Shown: piece by piece, positions 7,766 to 36,428 of the stretch
Numbering within the stretch: the first letter of the stretch is position 1
Layout: every line of letters begins with the position of its first letter
Origin: a virus
Length of the DNA stretch: 39,600 bases
IMG/VR virus record: IMGVR_UViG_3300037119_000629
Span: 1 to 39,600 of that record
Direction: 5' to 3' (one strand)
Notes under the pieces: model-generated
The model's database searches: none
The model's input: only the letters and a program-made list of their open reading frames with translations
What the model was told of the DNA's origin: nothing
Position numbers and translations under genes: made by a program

Positions 7766-9268
7766 ATGTCGGGCATCTTCCGGCCACATCAGTGGCGACC
7801 GCCTCAGCGTCGGGCGTTCCTGCCGACGGCTCCTGCGGGGACGGATGTCACCGACACAGCACCGGTCGGCTCGCTCGCCGCCTCCGGACTGGTCGCCCAG
7901 TCCGCCTCCTCGATCGTCGCGCTGGCCCTGCTCGGCACGCTGTCGATCAGTGGCGTCCAGGCCACCTCCACCTCTGACGTCGTCCACACCGCCAGGGTCG
8001 GCTACGCCTCCGTCTCCGGGGAGGCTGCGGCTTCCACCATCGGGGCGGTCGGCACGCCCACCGTGGGCTCACTGTCGGTCTCTGGTCTCCAGGCCACCTC
8101 CGCCGCTGACGTCATCCACACCGCGCGGGTCGGGTTCCTGTCGCTGAGTGGGGTCCGGGCTGCCTCCACCGCCGATGTCACCAGCACCGCCACTGTGGGT
8201 GCGCTGGCCCTGTCTGGGCTCCAGGCCGTCTCCACCGTCGGAGCCACTGACATCGCGCACGTCGGCGCTCTGAGCGTCTCGGGTGTGCGGGCGCAGTCCA
8301 CCTCGGACAGCACCAACGCCGCTCGCGTCGGGCACCTGGCCGTCAGCGGGGTACCGGCCACCTCGGTCATCCAGACCAACGTCACCGACACGGCGCATGT
8401 CGGGTCGCTGTCCGTGTCCGGTGTGTCCGCAGTGTCTGCCGCGTCCGTCACCCACACCGCCAGGGTGGGCTTCCTCGCCGTCTCCGGCCTGGCACCCATC
8501 CTGTCGTTCGAGGATGTGGTGGAGGGGACCGGTCCTGGGCTCCTGGCCATCTCCGGTATCCGCGCCGACTCGGTGATCGTCGGCGACAACGTCACCCACA
8601 CCACCCACACGGGACTCATGGTCCTGTCGGGTATCCCGGCCACCTCGGTCGGTGTCGCCGTCCACACGGCCAGGGTCGGCTTCCTGTCGATCAGCGGCCT
8701 CCGCGCGGACGGTGCCTCCATCGTCACCAGCGCAGCCCACACGGGCTCGCTGGCCATCTCCGGTGTCCCAGCAGCCTCCACGGTCAACGGGGTCGGTACG
8801 GCCCGTGTGGGGTCACTCTCCGTCAGCGGCATCTCCGCCGACTCGGTCGGCCTGACCAACGTCACCAGTCCTGCCTCCGTCGGCTTCCTGTCCCTGGCCG
8901 GGGTGGGGGCCACTGCCGGGTCCGACGCCACCGCGACAGCACATGTCGGCTCGCTGTCGATCAGTGGCATCGCCCCGCTCCTCATCATCGAGGAGGTCAT
9001 CGAGGGCAACGGCCCCGCCTGCCTGGCCATCTACGGCATCCCGGCCACGTCCACGACGGCGGCGCTGGACCAGACCCACACCACCAAGGTCGGGTTCCTC
9101 TCGCTGTCCGGCCTGCGTGCCCGCTCCATCATCGACGGCGGCATCCCTGTCCCGATCTGCGAGCCGACCCTTACCCTGACAGTGCCGTCCACCGACCTGA
9201 CGCTCACCGTCGTGGACGGACACCTCACCCTCACCGTCCCTGCGACAGCACTGGAGTTGTCATGCTGA
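7766..9268 (+). CDS. Tandem-repeat beta-strand protein (500 aa, 19 units)
   Basis: The ATG follows the previous stop by four bases and has no clear ribosome-binding site, suggesting coupled translation. After a basic N-terminus (MSGIFRPHQWRPPQRRAF), residues 32-458 consist of 19 units of about 22 residues with the consensus TARVGxLSISGxxATSxxDVxH. The alternation of small and hydrophobic residues suggests a stacked beta fibre or solenoid. Units 8 and 15 are 24 residues long and share TNVT; units 10 and 17 share an APxL..E-V-EG-GP insertion. A longer period of 160 residues is therefore laid over the short one. The C-terminus carries three LTLTVP-like strands and ends in Cys. No enzymatic motif is seen. 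It is probably a fibre or whisker on the head or neck; the name of any family is unknown to me. Confidence 0.7.
   Translation: MSGIFRPHQWRPPQRRAFLPTAPAGTDVTDTAPVGSLAASGLVAQSASSIVALALLGTLSISGVQATSTSDVVHTARVGYASVSGEAAASTIGAVGTPTVGSLSVSGLQATSAADVIHTARVGFLSLSGVRAASTADVTSTATVGALALSGLQAVSTVGATDIAHVGALSVSGVRAQSTSDSTNAARVGHLAVSGVPATSVIQTNVTDTAHVGSLSVSGVSAVSAASVTHTARVGFLAVSGLAPILSFEDVVEGTGPGLLAISGIRADSVIVGDNVTHTTHTGLMVLSGIPATSVGVAVHTARVGFLSISGLRADGASIVTSAAHTGSLAISGVPAASTVNGVGTARVGSLSVSGISADSVGLTNVTSPASVGFLSLAGVGATAGSDATATAHVGSLSISGIAPLLIIEEVIEGNGPACLAIYGIPATSTTAALDQTHTTKVGFLSLSGLRARSIIDGGIPVPICEPTLTLTVPSTDLTLTVVDGHLTLTVPATALELSC
7859..9139 (+). repeat. 19 tandem 66-bp-class coding repeats
   Basis: This is the DNA counterpart of the 22-residue protein repeats. 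Most units are 66 bases and some are 72. The units have diverged at the DNA level, so they are old duplications kept by selection on the protein, not a fresh expansion. A second-order repeat is visible: the APILSF and APLLII insertions start at 8492 and 8972, exactly 480 bases apart. Confidence 0.85.
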
Positions 9269-15081: not shown

Positions 15082-18000
15082 GTGCCGAGAGGTGAACTCG
15101 TCGGTGACGCCTTCATCCGGATCACTGCCGACACCACGGCGATGCGCCGCGCTCTCAAACGGGAGGCGGCGCTCGCCGAGGCGGAGGGCACCTCTGCTGG
15201 TGCTGGCTACTCCTCCGCGTTCGGCAAGGAGGTCGAGAAGCGGGCCGACCAGGACCTGGCCGGAGCCCGGAAGAAGATCCGCACCGCGCTGACCGAGGCC
15301 CTGGTCTCCGGCGACTTCAGCGAGTTCGAGCGGTCCCTGGGTGGGGTGGAGCAGGCGTCGGCCCGCATCCGGGCGGAACTGACCAGGCTGAGGGAGACCA
15401 ACCAACTCAACGCCAAAGAGTTCGAGGTCTTCAACAACCAGGTCGAGAAGTGGGCGAAGTCCGCACTCATCGAGGAGCGGGCCAAGAAGGACGCTGAAGC
15501 CCTCCAGGCGCTGCACACCGAGGCGCTGAAACTGAACACCGTCTGGGACAACAACGCCTCCGCCCAGAAGAGGGCGTTCGCCGCCATGCAGGCCGAAGCC
15601 ATGCGGATGAACCGGACCTTCGACGTGCAGGCCAACGCCCGCGCTCGCGCTGACGCCAAGGCGTGGAACGACATGCTGGTCGAGGCGCGGCGGATGAACG
15701 TCGAGTTCGACCGCCTCAACAAGGAGCGGACGCGGGCTGCCGTCAAGGCGTGGGCCGACATGGTCACCGAGGCGAAGCAGTTGAACGCCACCTTCGACCG
15801 GAACCAGCGGGCCAGCGCAGCCGCCACGAAGAAGGCGTGGAACGACATGCGGGTGGAAGCCGTCCGCATGAACAAGGAGTTCGACCGGGTCAACATCGCC
15901 AACGCCTTCAAGGACGCCACCCGTGAGGCGGACGCCTTCAACGCGAAACTGCGGGACAGCGGCACTGTCCTCTTCGGCATGGACCGGAACATCAAGTCCG
16001 TGTCGGTGTCCATGGCGAAGATCCGGGAGGGTGCGCGCGGGGCTGAGGCGTTCATCGTCAAGACCGGGCGTGGGGCCAGGGACCTGGACCGGGACACGGG
16101 TCGTGCGCGCAGGTCGGCGGACGGCCTGTTCTCCGTCTTCGGTGGGCTGAACAAGACCCTGGAGGGGATCAGCCACCGAGGCAACCCGCTGGTGGACCTG
16201 CTGGTCGCACCGCTCCGGGCCGGTACCGCGCTGGGCAAGGTGTTCGACCAGATCTTCCTGAAGTCCTTCGGCAAGTTCGCTGGTGGCAGTCCGGCGCTGG
16301 GTGGGCTGGTCAGCATCGGCTCCGCTGCTGCGGCTGCGGTCGTCGCCATCCTGGCCATGATCAAGACGGCTAGCCTGCTGGCCTCCGCCCTGTCGCTGGT
16401 GGCTGGCGCTGCCATCGTCGCCGCGTCGGCCATCGGTGGTGCGCTGGTCGGGGCGCTCCTGGCTGCCGCTGCCGCCGTCCCCGCCGTCCTGGCTGGGCTG
16501 GGTGGGATGGTCCTGTTCATCAAGGACTTCAGCAAGCAGGCACCGAAGTCGGTGGAGGCGCTGAAGCAGTTCGGCATCGCGTTCCAGAAGGCGTTCGACA
16601 CCACCGCCTTCAAGGGAATCGACCGCAAGGTGGGCATCCTGCTGGATGCGCTGCGCCCGATGGCGCTGAAGTTGGCCAAGGACCTGGGTTCCACCTTTGC
16701 CGGGATCGCCACCGGGATCGTCCAGTCGTTCACCAACCCCGCCGTGAAGAAGAGTCTCGGCACCATCCTCGACGCCATCCCCCATCAGGTGGCCCTACTC
16801 GGGAGCGCGCTCACCAACCTCACCACCGGGCTGATCGGGTTCTTCGCGCCCATCATGCCGTTCGCCACCACCCTCCTGAAGGCGTTCGACGACCTCTTCA
16901 TCTCCTTCTCGCGCTGGGCCAACTCGGCGACCGGCCAGGAGTCCATCGTCGACTTCATGGACACCGCCTTCACGATGGCTCGGTCCCTGTGGCAGACCAT
17001 CGTCAACATCGGGAGGGCCATTGGCAGTCTGTTCACCGCTGCGTCCAGTGGTCCCGCTCAGGACTTCCTCGGATTCCTGGAGCACATCAGTGGAAAGTTC
17101 GCGGACTTCCTCGCCTCTACCCAGGGCCAGAACGAACTGAAGCAGTGGTTCGCCGACGTGAAGTTGGCGGCTCAGGGTCTCGGCGAACTGATCATGGGCA
17201 TCGCCACCGTGTTCGACCACCTCGACACGGCGAAGGGCCGGGAGCAGATCGCGGGTGCGCTGGACACGGTGGGCCGCTGGCTCCAGCAGTCCGGTCCCAT
17301 GATCGACGCTGCGCTCGGCTTCGTGGACGCCCTCACCTCGAAGTTGGGCACCGTCAACCTGAAGCCGTTCGGCGACCTGCTGGCCCTGATCGGGAACTTC
17401 GTCACGGAGGTGGCGGGTGCACTGAAGGGTGACGCCCTGAACGTCCTGGACACCAAGTTGGAGGGCTTCAACGAACTGGCCGCGTCCATCCGGGACGACC
17501 TGATCCCCTCGCTGAAGGACGCGATGGTGTGGCTGAAGCCGCTGGCCGAGTTCCTGGGCGGGTCGATCCTGAAGAACCTGGCGTCGTCCTTCAAGGGTGT
17601 CGCGGACATCATCGCCGGACTGTCCGAGTCGATGGCCGGGTTCCTCGACATCATCACCGGCATCGTCACCCTGGACGTGAGCAAGATTGGGGAGGGGTTC
17701 CGCAAGGAGTTCGAGGGCTCCGGCAAGATCCTGGCCGGAGCGTTCAACGCGGGCACCGGCCCGGTGAAGGGCATCATCGACCAGTTCGCGGGCACCACGT
17801 CCAACGCCTTCGAGGGCATGCAGACCGACGCCGCTGCGGCTGGCTCCTCCATCTCGGACAGCATCTCGTCGGGCTTCACGTCGGCGACCGAGGCGACGTC
17901 CTCGTTCTTCGACGACCTGGGCAAGAGTTTCGAGGACACCCGGCTGTCCATCGGCCAGTGGTTCGACGACACCTTCAGCGCACCGGACATCGACTTCTCC

Positions 18001-19413
18001 GCCGTGGGGGAGAAGATCGCGGACCTGGGTACCAGCATCGCGGACGGCTTCACCACCGCCCGCCTGGCGACCGGCCAGTTCTTCACCGACCTCGGCTCCA
18101 GCATCAGCGAGGGGTTCACCTCGGGGCGGCTGTCCATCGGTCAGTTCTTCACCGACCTGGGGACCAGCATCAGCGAGGGCTTCTCGAAGGCCATGGAGTC
18201 CGTGGCCGGGTTCTTCACGGACCTGCCGGACAAGATCGTCTTCTGGCTGGGCCAGGCCGCTGGCTCGATCGTCAACTTCTTCTACGAGCAGATCACTGCG
18301 GTGCAGAAGCAGTTCGAGGAGACGTTCATCCCGTTCATCACGGGGCTGCCGGAGCAGTTGGGTGCACTGTGGGACCAGGCCGACAAGTTCGTCAGCCAGT
18401 TCTTCATCGACCAGTACGACGCCGTGGTGGAGTGGTGGAACACGGTGTTCTTCCCGTGGTTCTCCAGCATCCCCGAGACCCTCAGCACCCTCTGGGACAA
18501 CGCCAACCAGATCGTGAGCCAGTTCTTCATCGACCAGTTCAACTCGGTCCTGGCCTGGTGGAACGAGACCTTCGTGCCCTGGTGGACCAGCATCCCGGAG
18601 ATGCTCGGCTCGCTCTGGGAGTCCACCGGGGACGTGGTCGGCCAGTGGTTCATCACCCAGTGGGAGAACCTGGTCGACTGGTGGAACACCACGGCGCAGC
18701 CCTGGTTCGCCAGCCTGCCGGACCTGGTGCGCAACGAGTTCATGATCCGGATCAACGGGCTGCGGGACTGGGTCGTCTCGCTGTGGGACAACGCGCTGGG
18801 CTACCTCCAGGGCACCGTCATCCCCTGGTTCCGAGAACTGCCGAACGTGATCCGCAACGCCTTCATGGAGCGGGTCAACGGGCTGAAGGACTGGGGCGTC
18901 GCGCTCTGGACCAACTTCACGACCTGGTGGGAGGGCACGGCCATGCCCTGGTTCCGGGAACTGCCCGGACGCATCGGCCAGTTCTTCGTCAACATCGGCA
19001 GGACCGTCGGCTCCTACATCGCGGACGCCCTGAAGGGCACCCTCAACGACATCATCCGGAACATCAACAACTTCATCGCGGGCTTCAACGACACCTCCCC
19101 CTTCGACCTGCCCTTCATCTCCTACCTTGCCAAGGGTGGGCTGGTGGACCACGCCACCATGGCGGTCATCGGCGAGTCCGGCAGGGAGGCCGTGGTGCCT
19201 CTGGACCGGCCCCTCAGCCAGGTCGATGAGTCGGTCCGTTGGCTCGCGGCCATCGCGCAGGGCAAGACCCACTACGCCTCCGGTGGTATCGCTGGTGGGG
19301 GGAAGACCATCACCATCGCTCCGGGTGCCATCAACGTGCAGCCGGTGAACGCGGACCCGATGCAGGTGGCGTCGGCGGTGCTGGACCGGATGGCAGTAGG
19401 AGCGTTCATCTGA
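15082..19413 (+). CDS. Tape measure protein
   Basis: This is the longest gene here: 1443 aa, starting at GTG after GAGGAGG. It sets tail length and is ejected ahead of DNA. At roughly 0.15 nm per residue it implies a tail near 215 nm. Residues 1-300 are coiled-coil with four exact 29-residue repeats. Residues 405-485 are strongly hydrophobic (GSAAAAAVVAILAMIKTASLLASAL...), the usual membrane-active part. Later sections are amphipathic. Residues about 1080-1300 hold Trp-rich repeats of about 41 residues (PWFSSIPETLSTLW, QFFIDQF, WWN). The C-terminus has AKGGLVDHATMAVIGESGREAVVPL, the common tape-measure ending. It overlaps the next gene in TGATG. No lysozyme or peptidase motif was found in it. 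Confidence 0.95.
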   Translation: MPRGELVGDAFIRITADTTAMRRALKREAALAEAEGTSAGAGYSSAFGKEVEKRADQDLAGARKKIRTALTEALVSGDFSEFERSLGGVEQASARIRAELTRLRETNQLNAKEFEVFNNQVEKWAKSALIEERAKKDAEALQALHTEALKLNTVWDNNASAQKRAFAAMQAEAMRMNRTFDVQANARARADAKAWNDMLVEARRMNVEFDRLNKERTRAAVKAWADMVTEAKQLNATFDRNQRASAAATKKAWNDMRVEAVRMNKEFDRVNIANAFKDATREADAFNAKLRDSGTVLFGMDRNIKSVSVSMAKIREGARGAEAFIVKTGRGARDLDRDTGRARRSADGLFSVFGGLNKTLEGISHRGNPLVDLLVAPLRAGTALGKVFDQIFLKSFGKFAGGSPALGGLVSIGSAAAAAVVAILAMIKTASLLASALSLVAGAAIVAASAIGGALVGALLAAAAAVPAVLAGLGGMVLFIKDFSKQAPKSVEALKQFGIAFQKAFDTTAFKGIDRKVGILLDALRPMALKLAKDLGSTFAGIATGIVQSFTNPAVKKSLGTILDAIPHQVALLGSALTNLTTGLIGFFAPIMPFATTLLKAFDDLFISFSRWANSATGQESIVDFMDTAFTMARSLWQTIVNIGRAIGSLFTAASSGPAQDFLGFLEHISGKFADFLASTQGQNELKQWFADVKLAAQGLGELIMGIATVFDHLDTAKGREQIAGALDTVGRWLQQSGPMIDAALGFVDALTSKLGTVNLKPFGDLLALIGNFVTEVAGALKGDALNVLDTKLEGFNELAASIRDDLIPSLKDAMVWLKPLAEFLGGSILKNLASSFKGVADIIAGLSESMAGFLDIITGIVTLDVSKIGEGFRKEFEGSGKILAGAFNAGTGPVKGIIDQFAGTTSNAFEGMQTDAAAAGSSISDSISSGFTSATEATSSFFDDLGKSFEDTRLSIGQWFDDTFSAPDIDFSAVGEKIADLGTSIADGFTTARLATGQFFTDLGSSISEGFTSGRLSIGQFFTDLGTSISEGFSKAMESVAGFFTDLPDKIVFWLGQAAGSIVNFFYEQITAVQKQFEETFIPFITGLPEQLGALWDQADKFVSQFFIDQYDAVVEWWNTVFFPWFSSIPETLSTLWDNANQIVSQFFIDQFNSVLAWWNETFVPWWTSIPEMLGSLWESTGDVVGQWFITQWENLVDWWNTTAQPWFASLPDLVRNEFMIRINGLRDWVVSLWDNALGYLQGTVIPWFRELPNVIRNAFMERVNGLKDWGVALWTNFTTWWEGTAMPWFRELPGRIGQFFVNIGRTVGSYIADALKGTLNDIIRNINNFIAGFNDTSPFDLPFISYLAKGGLVDHATMAVIGESGREAVVPLDRPLSQVDESVRWLAAIAQGKTHYASGGIAGGGKTITIAPGAINVQPVNADPMQVASAVLDRMAVGAFI
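15571..15918 (+). repeat. Four 87-bp coding repeats in tape measure
   Basis: Residues 164-279 contain four units with exactly 29-residue spacing (aligned aromatic positions 166, 195, 224, 253). Their consensus is KAWNDMxxEAxRMNxxFDR. A weaker related unit precedes them at 25-residue distance. The spacing suits a continuous helical rod. Confidence 0.8.
18322..18969 (+). repeat. Tryptophan-rich repeats in tape-measure C-terminus
   Basis: About five units of roughly 41 residues follow the pattern PWFxSIPExLxxLWDxAxxxVxQFFIDQxxxVxxWWN. The first three are close copies and the last two have drifted to RxAFMERVNGLKDW. The even spacing of Trp pairs suggests amphipathic helices lining the tail lumen or meeting the membrane. 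Confidence 0.75.
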
Positions 19414-32883: not shown

Positions 32884-33236
32884 CAGAACCCCACCACCTT
32901 GTACTGGATGCCCGCCTCGTTGACCTGACGTATGCAGTCGTAGGTCCCCCGGCTGGTGGCCAGTGGGAAGGCGACACAGTGGTCTGGCTCCAGGCTCACC
33001 ATCCAGCCGTTACGGATGTGGCCAGCAGCCTTTCGGTACACCGACCAGTTGGCCTCCACGGTGACCACGGGCAGGCCACGAGTGCGCGCCCACTGCCTGC
33101 CGATCTGGTCAGCGCCCGTAGCCCCGCCCTCGATGAGCATGAAGTCTCCAATCTGGGCACGGAGAGCATCCAGTTCCTGGAAGATCAGACCAACGTCGTG
33201 GTAGTCACGCGAGCCGGTGATGAGCACCTTCCTCAT
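32883..33236 (-). CDS. SLOG/DUF2493-like nucleotide-binding protein (117 aa)
   Basis: GAGGT precedes the ATG. The protein starts MRKVLITGSRDYHD, the Rossmann-like SLOG (YspA/cpYpsA) opening, followed by FMLIEGGATGADQIGRQWARTRG, whose GGATGAD is the phosphate-binding motif. These proteins bind nucleotides or nucleotide-derived ligands and occur in both phages and defence systems. It lies directly downstream of the primase-helicase gene with an ATGA overlap. A role in nucleotide sensing or anti-defence is possible but not shown. Confidence 0.8.
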   Translation of the reverse strand: MRKVLITGSRDYHDVGLIFQELDALRAQIGDFMLIEGGATGADQIGRQWARTRGLPVVTVEANWSVYRKAAGHIRNGWMVSLEPDHCVAFPLATSRGTYDCIRQVNEAGIQYKVVGF

Positions 33237-34810
33237 GCCGACCTCACATTCTGGGAGCCCTTCAGGTCCGGGCCTGCGTCCATCCACGGCCACTCCACCG
33301 AGTTGGGTGCGCCCCAGCGCAGCCGCTCCGGCCACACCCGTGACCGCTCCCGTGGGTACCGGGTGCGGGTCCAGTCATAGACGCCCTCCTCCCCCTCCAC
33401 CGGGTCCATGCCGTACCCGTAGTCCGGCCACTTCAGGAACAGGCTGGAGCCGTACGGGCGCAGCGACCGTTTCTTGTCACCCGGTGCCCGGTGCGGGGAG
33501 TGGTGCTCCATGAAGATGGCCGACCCGCATACCTCGCGGGACTCGTCGATGGTGCGCTTCAGCCTGCGCACCACGTCGTCGTCCTTCACGTCCCGACCGG
33601 TCAGGTTCTGGATCGGGCCGAGCAGGATCAACTTCGGGCGGTAGGCGTTGACCCGTTCCATCAGCCACTCGCGCCCTTCCAGGGAGGTGAGGTCCGGCTG
33701 GTTCAGGTACTCCATCATCAGGTTCAGCATCCCCGCTGGGATGGGCCGCTTGAAGTGGGCTGCCCTGCCGACCAGGTCGGACCAGGACCGGTGCATCTGG
33801 CGTGGCCCGTTCTCGGCGTCGATCACCAGGGTGCGGACCGGCTCCATCTCATCGAGCGTGAAGGGGTGGATGCCTGCCGCGCACATGACGGCCACCTGCC
33901 GGAACAGGGTGGACTTGCCGTGCCCCTCCAGTCCGGTGATCAGTGCCCGCTCCTCCTCCGCGAGCGTGTCGGGGATGACGAAGCGTTCTGCCGCGAAGTC
34001 CCACTGCACGTAGTCGAGGATGTCCGTCCCCCCGACCGGCGATTCCACCTCGTCAGGCTCCTGGGAGACGTGCAGGAGGTCCGCCAGCGTCCCGCCCTTA
34101 GCCAGGTGGTCGGACACGTCCTTCGCGCCCTCACGGCCCGCCTCGTAGCGCGCAACGGTGCAGTCCGCCGCCTCCAGGAGTTCCGCGACGTACCTGCCGT
34201 GCGCCCTGCCCGGTGCGTCCTTGTCCTGGATGACGTGGACGGTCGACCCACGCAGGGCCTCGGTGTACTCGGGCTGCCACTTCCCGGCACCCATCGGGTT
34301 GGTCGTGGCCACCTCCCCGAGGGCTACCAGGTTGTCGGCGTCCTTCTCGCCCTCGACCACCCAGATGGTGCGCCCGTCCGCGACAGCCGCGATGACGTCA
34401 GGCAGGTGGTAGAGCACCCGCCGTACCCCGTTGAGGTTCCACACCCACTGACCGGAGGTGCCCAGGTGGCGTTGCCGGAACGTCTTCTTCCCGTCGGCCT
34501 GGACCATGCGCAGGGCCTGGAACAACTCCGCCCCATCCTCATCGGTGTACGAGTACACGACGGGTGCGGGGCGGATGGGCTGGACCTTGGCTTCGAGTGG
34601 TTTGCAGATCTCGTTCCAGTCGAGATTGGCTTCGGCGATGATCTCCTCGGTGGGGCAGCCTGCGTGACACATCAGGGTGACCGGCTGGTCAGTCCCTGCG
34701 GAGACGTGGAGGGAGGCGTTCCCATCTGGGTGGGCTGGGCACTGCACCATCACGGAGCCTGACTGACCTGACCTGACCGCGACAATGGCGTCCTCCAGTG
34801 CGACGCTCAC
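33233..34810 (-). CDS. Primase-helicase (CHC2 zinc, TOPRIM and RecA-type ATPase)
   Basis: 525 aa, starting at GTG in a GTGA overlap. Residues 20-52 are a zinc motif of CHC2 style (VQCPAHPDGNASLHV and LMCHAGC). Residues 148-200 are a TOPRIM domain, with VVEGEKDADNL and QDKDAPG providing the metal-binding acids. Residues 283-470 are a RecA-like ATPase: Walker A GLEGHGKST at 293-301, LVIDAENG, and RPKLILLGPIQNL, where the usual Walker-B Asp is replaced by Gly, as is common in actinophage RepA/AAA_25 forms. A complete RNA polymerase domain as in DnaG is not evident between zinc and TOPRIM. It likely unwinds DNA and may prime at the fork, together with the initiator gene just upstream. Confidence 0.88.
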   Translation of the reverse strand: MSVALEDAIVAVRSGQSGSVMVQCPAHPDGNASLHVSAGTDQPVTLMCHAGCPTEEIIAEANLDWNEICKPLEAKVQPIRPAPVVYSYTDEDGAELFQALRMVQADGKKTFRQRHLGTSGQWVWNLNGVRRVLYHLPDVIAAVADGRTIWVVEGEKDADNLVALGEVATTNPMGAGKWQPEYTEALRGSTVHVIQDKDAPGRAHGRYVAELLEAADCTVARYEAGREGAKDVSDHLAKGGTLADLLHVSQEPDEVESPVGGTDILDYVQWDFAAERFVIPDTLAEEERALITGLEGHGKSTLFRQVAVMCAAGIHPFTLDEMEPVRTLVIDAENGPRQMHRSWSDLVGRAAHFKRPIPAGMLNLMMEYLNQPDLTSLEGREWLMERVNAYRPKLILLGPIQNLTGRDVKDDDVVRRLKRTIDESREVCGSAIFMEHHSPHRAPGDKKRSLRPYGSSLFLKWPDYGYGMDPVEGEEGVYDWTRTRYPRERSRVWPERLRWGAPNSVEWPWMDAGPDLKGSQNVRSA

Positions 34811-34998: not shown

Positions 34999-35006
34999 GC
35001 TCATCC

Positions 35007-35711
35007 TCACTCGTACCAGGGACGCGAGTCCCGCTCATCCTCAGCAGGGGCGGCTGCCTCCGCCTGCGCTTGGTGCTCGTCCTGCACGAACCACTTCACC
35101 CACTCCTCCGCGACGGGTCGGCGCTCGTTGCGCTTCCGGTCCGCGAGGTACTTGGTGAGGTGCATCGTAGGTTCCCACGCCTTGGCGATGGAGTCCACTG
35201 TTTCCCATGCGGAGATCCAGTCGTTCTTCTCCTGGGTGGTGTGGTCTTTCAATGCTGCCCTGGCGAACTTCGGGAACGTGCTTTCAGTTACTGGAATCTC
35301 GGGGGGTGGGGGTTGTGCAGGTTCGTGCACTCGCCCTGTACTCACCTCTTCCTCAACCACATCTGGTTCTTTATTGGTGGTTCTTACGGTTATGGGTGCA
35401 CCGTCGTGCACCCCTTTGGGAACGTCGGTGCAGGGTGCACCGTCGTGCACCCCTGTCGGTACGTGCACTCGGTAGAGCGTGGAGTGGCCAGGTCGCGACT
35501 CCCTGGAGAGCCAGCCCCGCTCCTCCAGTTTGGCTAGCGTGGCGTACGTGGCTCGCGTTCCGATGCGACAACGTCGGGCAATCCGCTCGACTGATGGGAA
35601 GCACAACCCCTCCTCATTCGCATGATCCGCGACACAGAGAAGGACCAGGAGACTCGTTCCCTTCACGTCCTTCGCCTGGTCCCAGACGGCACCCATCCAG
35701 GTGATGCTCAT
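35007..35711 (-). CDS. Winged-helix replication initiator-like protein
   Basis: The 234-aa product begins MSITWMGAVWDQAKDVKGTS and has a HTH_36-type winged helix: LLVLLCVADHANEEGLCFPSVERIARRC, then TRATYATLAKLEERGWLSRE. This is the DNA-binding domain of many phage replication initiators. A linker of about 70 residues follows. It is low in structure and contains the repeated GVHDGAP. The C-terminal helical part (WISAWETVDSIAKAWEPTMHLTKYL, EEWVKWFVQDEHQAQAE) could recruit the helicase. It lies directly upstream of the primase-helicase, the usual initiator-helicase order. The linker-coding DNA holds inverted GTGCAC repeats and a dyad element. Confidence 0.75.
   Translation of the reverse strand: MSITWMGAVWDQAKDVKGTSLLVLLCVADHANEEGLCFPSVERIARRCRIGTRATYATLAKLEERGWLSRESRPGHSTLYRVHVPTGVHDGAPCTDVPKGVHDGAPITVRTTNKEPDVVEEEVSTGRVHEPAQPPPPEIPVTESTFPKFARAALKDHTTQEKNDWISAWETVDSIAKAWEPTMHLTKYLADRKRNERRPVAEEWVKWFVQDEHQAQAEAAAPAEDERDSRPWYE
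35282..35296. promoter_or_regulatory. Dyad element copy 5 (one mismatch), inside the initiator gene
   Basis: TTTCAGTTACTGGAA matches the consensus in 14 of 15 positions. It lies in the linker-coding part of the initiator gene (codons for P-V-T-E), about 100 bases from the GTGCAC repeats. Confidence 0.6.
35325..35468. repeat. GTGCAC inverted repeats, candidate replication origin
   Basis: GTGCAC occurs at 35325, 35396, 35406, 35435, 35445 and 35463. Two 22-bp identical copies (35394-35415 and 35433-35454) each contain GGGTGCAC and GTGCACCC around a 4-base CGTC spacer, and they repeat with a 39-base period. The 60 bases before them (35341-35400) are about 53% A+T by hand count, well above the surroundings. 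Iterons plus an A+T-rich stretch inside an initiator gene resemble the origin within the lambda O gene. A plain protein-level duplication (GVHDGAP twice) is the alternative. Confidence 0.5.
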
Positions 35712-36028
35712 CGCGGATCACCTGTCATCTTGCGGAGGTTGCAAGGACCGCAGGCCCAGACCAGGTTGGTGCGTTCGTGACCACCGCCGCGAGATTGGGC
35801 GACCCGGTGGTCGAGGGTGTACGTCTCCATGGTCAGCCACTCATCGCAGTACGCACAGGATGGCATGGCCAACTCGAACAGCATCTCAATCACACGTTGC
35901 CTGCGGACCTTCGACCACTCGTGCCGCGTTCGTGACTGACAGGTTCGGCAGATCAGCGTGCGACTGTCTCGTCGCCATGGCGTGAACTCTGTCCCGCAGG
36001 TCACGCACTCGATGGGCTGGTTCTTCAC
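35708..36028 (-). CDS. HNH endonuclease with zinc ribbon (106 aa)
   Basis: The start chosen is GTG (36026-36028) with AAAGGGGAG at good spacing. The frame is open further to 36211, but that stretch has unlike composition and no good site. Residues 1-35 are a four-cysteine ribbon (CVTCGTEF, CRTCQSR). The HNH core follows: CAYCDEWLTMETYTLDHRVAQSRGGG, then ERTNLVWACGPCNLRKM, with the HNH His in LDH, the Asn in TNLV and a zinc pair. Such enzymes nick or cut DNA and may be free-standing homing or packaging-related. It is the first gene of the leftward operon. Confidence 0.82.
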   Translation of the reverse strand: MKNQPIECVTCGTEFTPWRRDSRTLICRTCQSRTRHEWSKVRRQRVIEMLFELAMPSCAYCDEWLTMETYTLDHRVAQSRGGGHERTNLVWACGPCNLRKMTGDPR

Positions 36029-36173
36029 ACCACTCCCCTTTCTTCTAGGGGAGGAACCGGAGGCTGCACTACACTGGACGCCAGCGCGTTCCAGCGTGGT
36101 GACCTCCTGTTTCTCCATGGTTTCCAGGTGGGTCATCGGTGAACCCCCGTACCTCATCCTCCGGGCGGCCACC

Positions 36174-36206
36174 AGGCCCCTCCTGTGTTGGAGCAGGGGG
36201 GGCCTT
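36174..36206 (+). terminator. Terminator-like hairpin in divergent gap
   Basis: AGGCCCCTCCTG pairs with CAGGGGGGGCCT (one G-T pair) around TGTTGGAG, followed by TTCTCATATTCAG on the plus strand. It would stop rightward readthrough before the endolysin unit. The rest of the gap 36029-36281 contains the endolysin promoter candidate and no gene that I can support. Confidence 0.55.
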
Positions 36207-36245
36207 CTCATATTCAGTTAGGGTCCAGAGTTTACCTCCCTCATG

Positions 36246-36274
36246 TGTGACATGTCCATGTTCCGGGGTACCCT
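36246..36274 (+). promoter_or_regulatory. Candidate promoter for endolysin unit, leaderless
   Basis: TGTGAC (36246-36251) and TACCCT (36269-36274) are 17 bases apart and resemble actinobacterial sigma-70-type boxes. Transcription would start at about 36280-36282, that is at the ATG of the next gene (36282), which has no ribosome-binding site. The mRNA would therefore be leaderless, a common form in actinobacteria. Confidence 0.45.
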
Positions 36275-36281
36275 CTAGGCC

Positions 36282-36428
36282 ATGACGGATGAGACGCCAC
36301 CGGTCCTGGACACCAGCGAACCAGCCGTGATCCCGCCCAACAACGGCGGACCTCACGAGGGTGACGTGCCCGTCGACCTCCTCGACCAGGCACCGTTCGA
36401 CCTGGGCAAGAAGGTGTCCGACCAGTGA
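36282..36428 (+). CDS. Small acidic protein upstream of endolysin (48 aa)
   Basis: The ATG has no Shine-Dalgarno sequence, consistent with a leaderless start. The product is acidic and Pro-rich (MTDETPPVLDTSEPAVIPPN, HEGDVPVDLLDQAPFDLGKK) and lacks a membrane helix, so it is not a holin. It ends in GTGA overlapping the endolysin start and may serve mainly to couple translation, or have a regulatory function. Confidence 0.65.
   Translation: MTDETPPVLDTSEPAVIPPNNGGPHEGDVPVDLLDQAPFDLGKKVSDQ

Follow-up and report, generated by a model that had tools for sequence, protein, structure and literature searches.

Genes at the locus

The window analyzed here comprises a complete IMG/VR record (39,600 bases). 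A replication initiator gene, a 67-amino-acid (aa) open reading frame (ORF) and a primase/helicase gene follow each other in the same direction.

35007-35711, minus strand: O-like replication initiator gene, 234 aa (P0001), assigned from PF13730 HTH_36, phrog_391, phrog_1032 and an AlphaFold model
33233-34810, minus strand: primase/helicase gene, proposed partner of the initiator, assigned from phrog_239 (4.4e-30) and AAA_25

The initiator has an N-terminal HTH_36 winged-helix domain (PF13730, 2.4e-11). Its match to phrog_391, "replication initiation O-like" (2.3e-20), spans the HTH and the linker behind it, and phrog_1032 was also matched. In the AlphaFold model, residues 1-82 formed a confident winged helix (pLDDT >90), and the C-terminal domain consisted of helices from about residue 148 to 219. 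The linker extends over about residues 83-140; its residues 91-130 were modeled with a pLDDT of about 48-60 and without secondary structure. The linker is therefore predicted to be disordered, in agreement with an earlier note on this DNA, which had considered it unstructured.

Lambda O, used as the control for the family test, matched PF04492 (lambda O family) at 5.7e-36. The window initiator gave no match to PF04492 even at E up to 1, indicating that it is not a lambda O. Among 50,697 phage records, none matched the region at the nucleotide level, and a search of the viral contigs with the initiator protein alone gave no confirmed relative. The PDB sequence search with the HTH domain found no close relative (best 2vn2, E 0.0057), and Foldseek returned generic winged-helix matches only, none at E ≤ 0.001. 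Nothing was found in Rfam and tRNA scans of the window. The primase/helicase was 48-52% identical to primase/helicases of Arthrobacter phages. On account of this identity an Arthrobacter-like host is likely, and the phage is probably actinobacterial.

A stretch of low G+C (0.436) was located at 36208-36262, upstream of an HNH gene. The only promoter-like site within 35000-36400 was at 36258-36229 on the minus strand. This site is a probable promoter, and its transcript would pass through the initiator gene.

Repeats in the linker-coding DNA

Several elements were located in the DNA that encodes the linker and are listed below in the direction of the gene; no strand is assigned to them.

35458-35471: single half-site GGTACGTGCACTCG, at the HTH-proximal edge
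35433-35452: iteron, 20-bp inverted repeat at codons 87-93, exact copy of the next and 39 bp from it (shuffle test)
35394-35413: iteron, 20-bp inverted repeat GGGTGCACCGTCGTGCACCC at codons 100-106 (synonymous-shuffle test; same class in other initiator linkers)
35339-35393: A+T-richer stretch, G+C 0.418, on the C-terminal side of the iterons; proposed unwinding element
35320-35333: partial copy GGTTCGTGCACTCG
35314-35331: degenerate half-site pair TGTGCAGGTTCGTGCACT with the same 10-bp spacing, beyond the A+T-richer stretch

Each iteron has 8-bp arms and a 4-bp center, GGGTGCAC-CGTC-GTGCACCC. Two identical inverted repeats of 22 bp had been described earlier; the two copies are indeed exact, and their identity covers 22 nt (GGGTGCACCGTCGTGCACCCCT), of which 20 bp form the inverted repeat. 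Additional single or partial copies had also been described; those located here are the half-site, the partial copy and the degenerate pair. The adjacent A+T-rich region, originally given as 60 bases, is 55 bp long and tied for the lowest G+C among the 55-mers of the window, although it is A+T-rich only relative to the genome, because its G+C of 0.418 compares with a window mean of about 0.66. The order along the gene is HTH, half-site, palindrome, palindrome, A+T-richer DNA, degenerate pair and C-terminal domain. As in lambda, multiple dyad-symmetric repeats thus lie inside the initiator gene, between its DNA-binding and C-terminal domains.

The TGCA cores in the linker occupy all three codon positions. 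Both full palindromes are read in one frame, as GVHDGAP, and for this reason the frame argument in the window rests on the half-sites and on relatives. Six copies of GTGCAC were present in the 144 bp of 35325-35468, compared to 10 in the other 39.4 kb. The total of 16 in the window, against 20 expected, shows no enrichment outside the linker region. No comparable short iteron array was found elsewhere in the window, where the other repeats are mostly long and located in structural genes. One structural gene (7934-9051) contains at least eight repeats with a 66-bp period (22 codons), and a long open frame (15082-19413) has repeats at 15571-15895 (87 bp) and at 18017-18620 (66 and 123 bp). GC skew, which had been suggested as a check of the candidate origin, showed no inflection there (35.3 kb) and was uninformative.

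To separate DNA from protein constraint, the protein sequence was kept fixed in 5000 synonymous codon permutations and in 5000 resamplings by phage codon usage. The six linker copies of GTGCAC compared to a mean of 2.0 in the permutations, none of which reached six, and to a mean of 1.7 in the resamplings, one of which did. Inverted repeats with 8-bp arms numbered two in the linker, against 0.13 expected. The repeats are encoded with rare codons, such as GCA, which makes up 0.10 of the Ala codons of this phage. By these codon-level comparisons, the repeats of the window are selected as DNA and not as protein.

Linker repeats in homologous initiators

Homologs of the N-terminal sequence were collected by protein alone from viral contigs and bacterial genomes, giving 51 clusters at 60% identity, or 52 with the window. 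The coverage of linker DNA by repeated 9-mers was 0.325, compared to 0.056 in synonymous shuffles. Linker repeats exceeded every synonymous shuffle in 34 of the 52 clusters when the linker was taken as 240 bp and in 37 of the 52 when it was taken as 300 bp. In the same genes, repeats above all shuffles were found in none of the HTH-coding parts (0/52) and none of the C-terminal parts (0/49). The members of a repeat pair were out of frame with each other in 1073 of 1756 pairs; as in lambda, the repeats are maintained as DNA whatever the reading frame.

Among hexamers occurring at least three times per linker, CACCCC was the leading one (24 of 51 clusters, 3.3 expected), and GCACCC (11 against 1.3) and TGCACC (8 against 0.7) also recurred in the 51 clusters, an enrichment that could partly reflect the Pro-rich composition of the linkers, because the shuffling of codons extended over the entire gene. 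The CACCCC-type core is present in GTGCACCCC of the window. Across the homologs, the side toward the C terminus was not systematically richer in A+T (paired Wilcoxon, p = 0.61).

Relatives detected from the palindrome

In a scan by DNA only, 2.9 million viral contigs were searched for AGGGTGCAN5TGCACCCT, a sister palindrome that differs from that of the window in being shorter by 1 bp. Of the 112 stretches detected, 95 were inside an ORF with the same HTH domain, as called by an HMM rebuilt once with hits that included motif-selected loci; the HTH homology is independent of the motif. At least two further stretches (L166 and L214) resemble initiators not recognized by the HMM. With a control palindrome matched in base composition, three stretches were obtained, none with the HTH.

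The set was redundant: the 99 palindrome-bearing genes from all scans to that point and the window formed 28 clusters at 70% protein identity, the largest of which held 66 genes. Over the 28 clusters, 34 palindrome copies were in frame 2, 11 in frame 1 and 4 in frame 0, and in 6 clusters more than one frame was used within a single gene. The presence of palindromes in all three frames across the clusters indicates that the DNA is kept and the protein is not. In L009, five copies of AAAGGGTGCA-N6-TGCACCCTTT are distributed over three frames and read as KGAPECTL, KGCNPVHPL, RVHSSAPF, KGAAECTL and RVQPVAPFF. Judging from the sequence, a protein-level cause cannot yield copies of this type. The earlier note had named, as the outcome that would speak against an origin, relatives that retain GVHDGAP and lose the palindrome. 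The opposite was observed, with the DNA recurring in related genes as different peptides, such as GVHDGAP, KGAPECTL, GCNPVHPL and RVHSSAPF.

The 6-bp spacing between TGCA cores found in the window was rarer than the 5-bp form (11 versus 35 copies). The scan for the exact window spacing, GGGTGCACN4GTGCACCC, detected few initiators (2 of 17 stretches), and the scan for AGGGTGCAN6TGCACCCT gave 11 stretches, among them the O-like L009, L223 and L224. The linkers of L223 and L224 contain many near-identical in-frame EEKVQSSAPF repeats with TGCA sites, forming unusually long arrays. A comparison of recognition helices between the GTGCA class and other HTHs revealed no clean shared signature and leaves the TGCAC core common to the subgroups unexplained. 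Given this, common descent and convergence of the GTGCA code were not separated.

GTGCAC clusters were also noticed in other settings. In L003 (2340-2415) and L011 (5486-5560), GTGCAC pairs with 10-bp spacing and A+T-rich flanks are located outside frames of at least 100 codons and could be an origin or a control site outside a gene. In each of the viral contigs L012 (10767-11688) and L014 (4885-6006), GTGCAC occurs at least 20 times within about 1 kb, in several frames over an apparent membrane-protein gene. In L144 (6424-6590), GTGCA-type repeats are in the leading part of an open frame and not in an HTH initiator; the downstream product of that frame might be, as a guess, a RecT-like or other recombination protein.

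A split initiator and the Arthrobacter phages

The contig L026, reached via its primase/helicase, has its initiator divided into two open frames, one for the HTH and one of 85 aa that shares homology with the C terminus of the window initiator and with that of the Arthrobacter phage proteins. In the gap of about 245 noncoding bp between them, a CATGTTCCC-TCTAGGG-like repeat occurs three times, with A+T-rich DNA (TATATAAGAACTATAAG / TATATAAGAACTATAAGAACTC) after it. As far as the sequence tells, the repeats keep the same place in L026 even where it is noncoding.

The Arthrobacter phage initiators are Ranunculus gp83, AWGoat gp67 ("RepA-like") and Tank gp70 (phrog_37920). As in the window, the initiator in these phages is followed by a primase/helicase, its C-terminal domain is homologous, and its linker contains repeats and then A+T-rich DNA. 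In contrast to the window, these initiators have another HTH subtype and another repeat sequence. The DNA-binding domain and its sites appear to have been exchanged as a unit.

Comparison with lambda and MD8

The origin of lambda is located inside the O gene and consists of four 18-bp hyphenated inverted-repeat iterons and a high-AT region (PMC6022878, PMC7466680, NC_001416 annotation). In our positive control, the lambda iterons were located at codons 117-144 in frames 0, 2, 2 and 1, and the G+C decreased from 0.40 upstream to 0.27 after the iterons. The repeat test gave p = 0.003 for the iteron region, but single-gene p-values should not be over-read, as the N-terminal part of lambda O also gave p = 0.007.

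The window shares with lambda the position of the sites within the initiator gene, with the DNA-binding N terminus on one side and the C terminus, helicase recruiting in lambda, on the other. The order of HTH, iterons, A+T and C terminus, the inverted-repeat type of the iterons and the independence of window-type repeats from the reading frame are also shared, lambda having its iterons in several frames. For the A+T-rich DNA the resemblance is that of the window itself, as the homologs showed no systematic preference of side. The iteron sequence differs, and lambda O belongs to PF04492 whereas the window protein belongs to HTH_36. In lambda, P loads the host DnaB, whereas a phage primase/helicase gene is present downstream of the window initiator. 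By its anatomy, the window protein would work like lambda O.

Pseudomonas phage MD8 encodes an O-like protein, gp56, with repeats within its gene (PMC8508860). This protein is in the same HTH-type O-like group as that of the window, and we found seven TGCACCC copies in three frames in its linker. MD8 differs in having direct iterons of 17-23 bp instead of 20-bp palindromes and a P-like loader instead of a primase/helicase.

Interpretation of the repeats

The linker-coding DNA of the initiator gene, about 35314-35471, is very probably a lytic replication origin built like that of lambda. An origin inside the initiator gene, which had been proposed for this DNA, is supported by the three-frame palindromes, by linker-only repeats beyond those in shuffles, by the gap of the split gene and by the lambda layout. 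The sequences provide the repeats, their selection as DNA, a predicted unstructured linker, the synteny and a layout that recurs in the initiators of other phages. The intragenic arrangement is known from lambda, and the sequences analyzed here show it in dozens of unrelated phages.

The palindromes could instead be an operator, bound by the initiator or another regulator solely for transcription of the replication operon, with replication starting elsewhere. Palindromes of this size resemble repressor operators, the region's sole promoter-like site precedes the operon, and an intragenic block could modulate read-through. However, the palindromes are in the middle of the gene and not at the promoter, and their multiple copies and fixed place in the linkers of many phages' initiators and in the split-initiator gap match the lambda origin instead. 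We consider the operator improbable.

It is still less probable that the repeats have no relation to initiation and serve, for example, in recombination, in packaging or as the target of a restriction-modification system. GTGCAC is the restriction site of ApaLI, and repeats can serve as recombination substrates, but outside the linker region the hexamer shows no enrichment (10 copies in about 39.4 kb of the window), and in many unrelated phages the sites are associated with the gene of the HTH initiator. The restriction site was set aside on the basis of the GTGCAC count elsewhere, the frame test and the synonymous test. The chance that the DNA repeat results from selection on a GVHDGAP protein repeat, as the single frame of the two full window copies might suggest, is the slightest, since this was largely refuted by the frame test, with relatives keeping the DNA in all three frames as different peptides, and since the synonymous codons are not free and the linker is predicted to be disordered.

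For the intragenic origin, the inferred steps are initiator binding, dimerization, DNA unwinding, contact with the helicase and the initiation of replication. The winged-helix N terminus would bind, as dimers, to the GTGCAC-palindrome iterons of its own gene. Several bound dimers would form a nucleoprotein complex, which would strain and open the neighboring 55 bp of A+T-richer DNA. Recruitment of the helicase would fall to the helical C-terminal domain, for which the phage's own primase/helicase, with its gene a short distance downstream, is the likely partner.

The chances are about even that, in phages and prophages at large, the replication origin lies in the linker DNA of HTH_36-type O-like initiator genes, with a shared CACCCC/TGCACCC half-site core diversified in orientation and spacing, and with the N terminus and iteron block as an exchangeable specificity module. 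How widely the linker arrangement and this core recur in the HTH_36 O-like family is less known than the lambda arrangement itself. For an uncultured and probably actinobacterial phage, the locus offers a candidate origin that can be tested. The frame-independent repeat test and the split-gene relative are kinds of evidence that could be used for origin finding in many metagenomic phages. The results suggest that the lambda design is common in a second large family of phage initiators, which has no Pfam match to the lambda O family. If HTH_36-type initiators broadly follow this design, with the shared half-site core, the origins of thousands of uncultured phages could be located from sequence alone.
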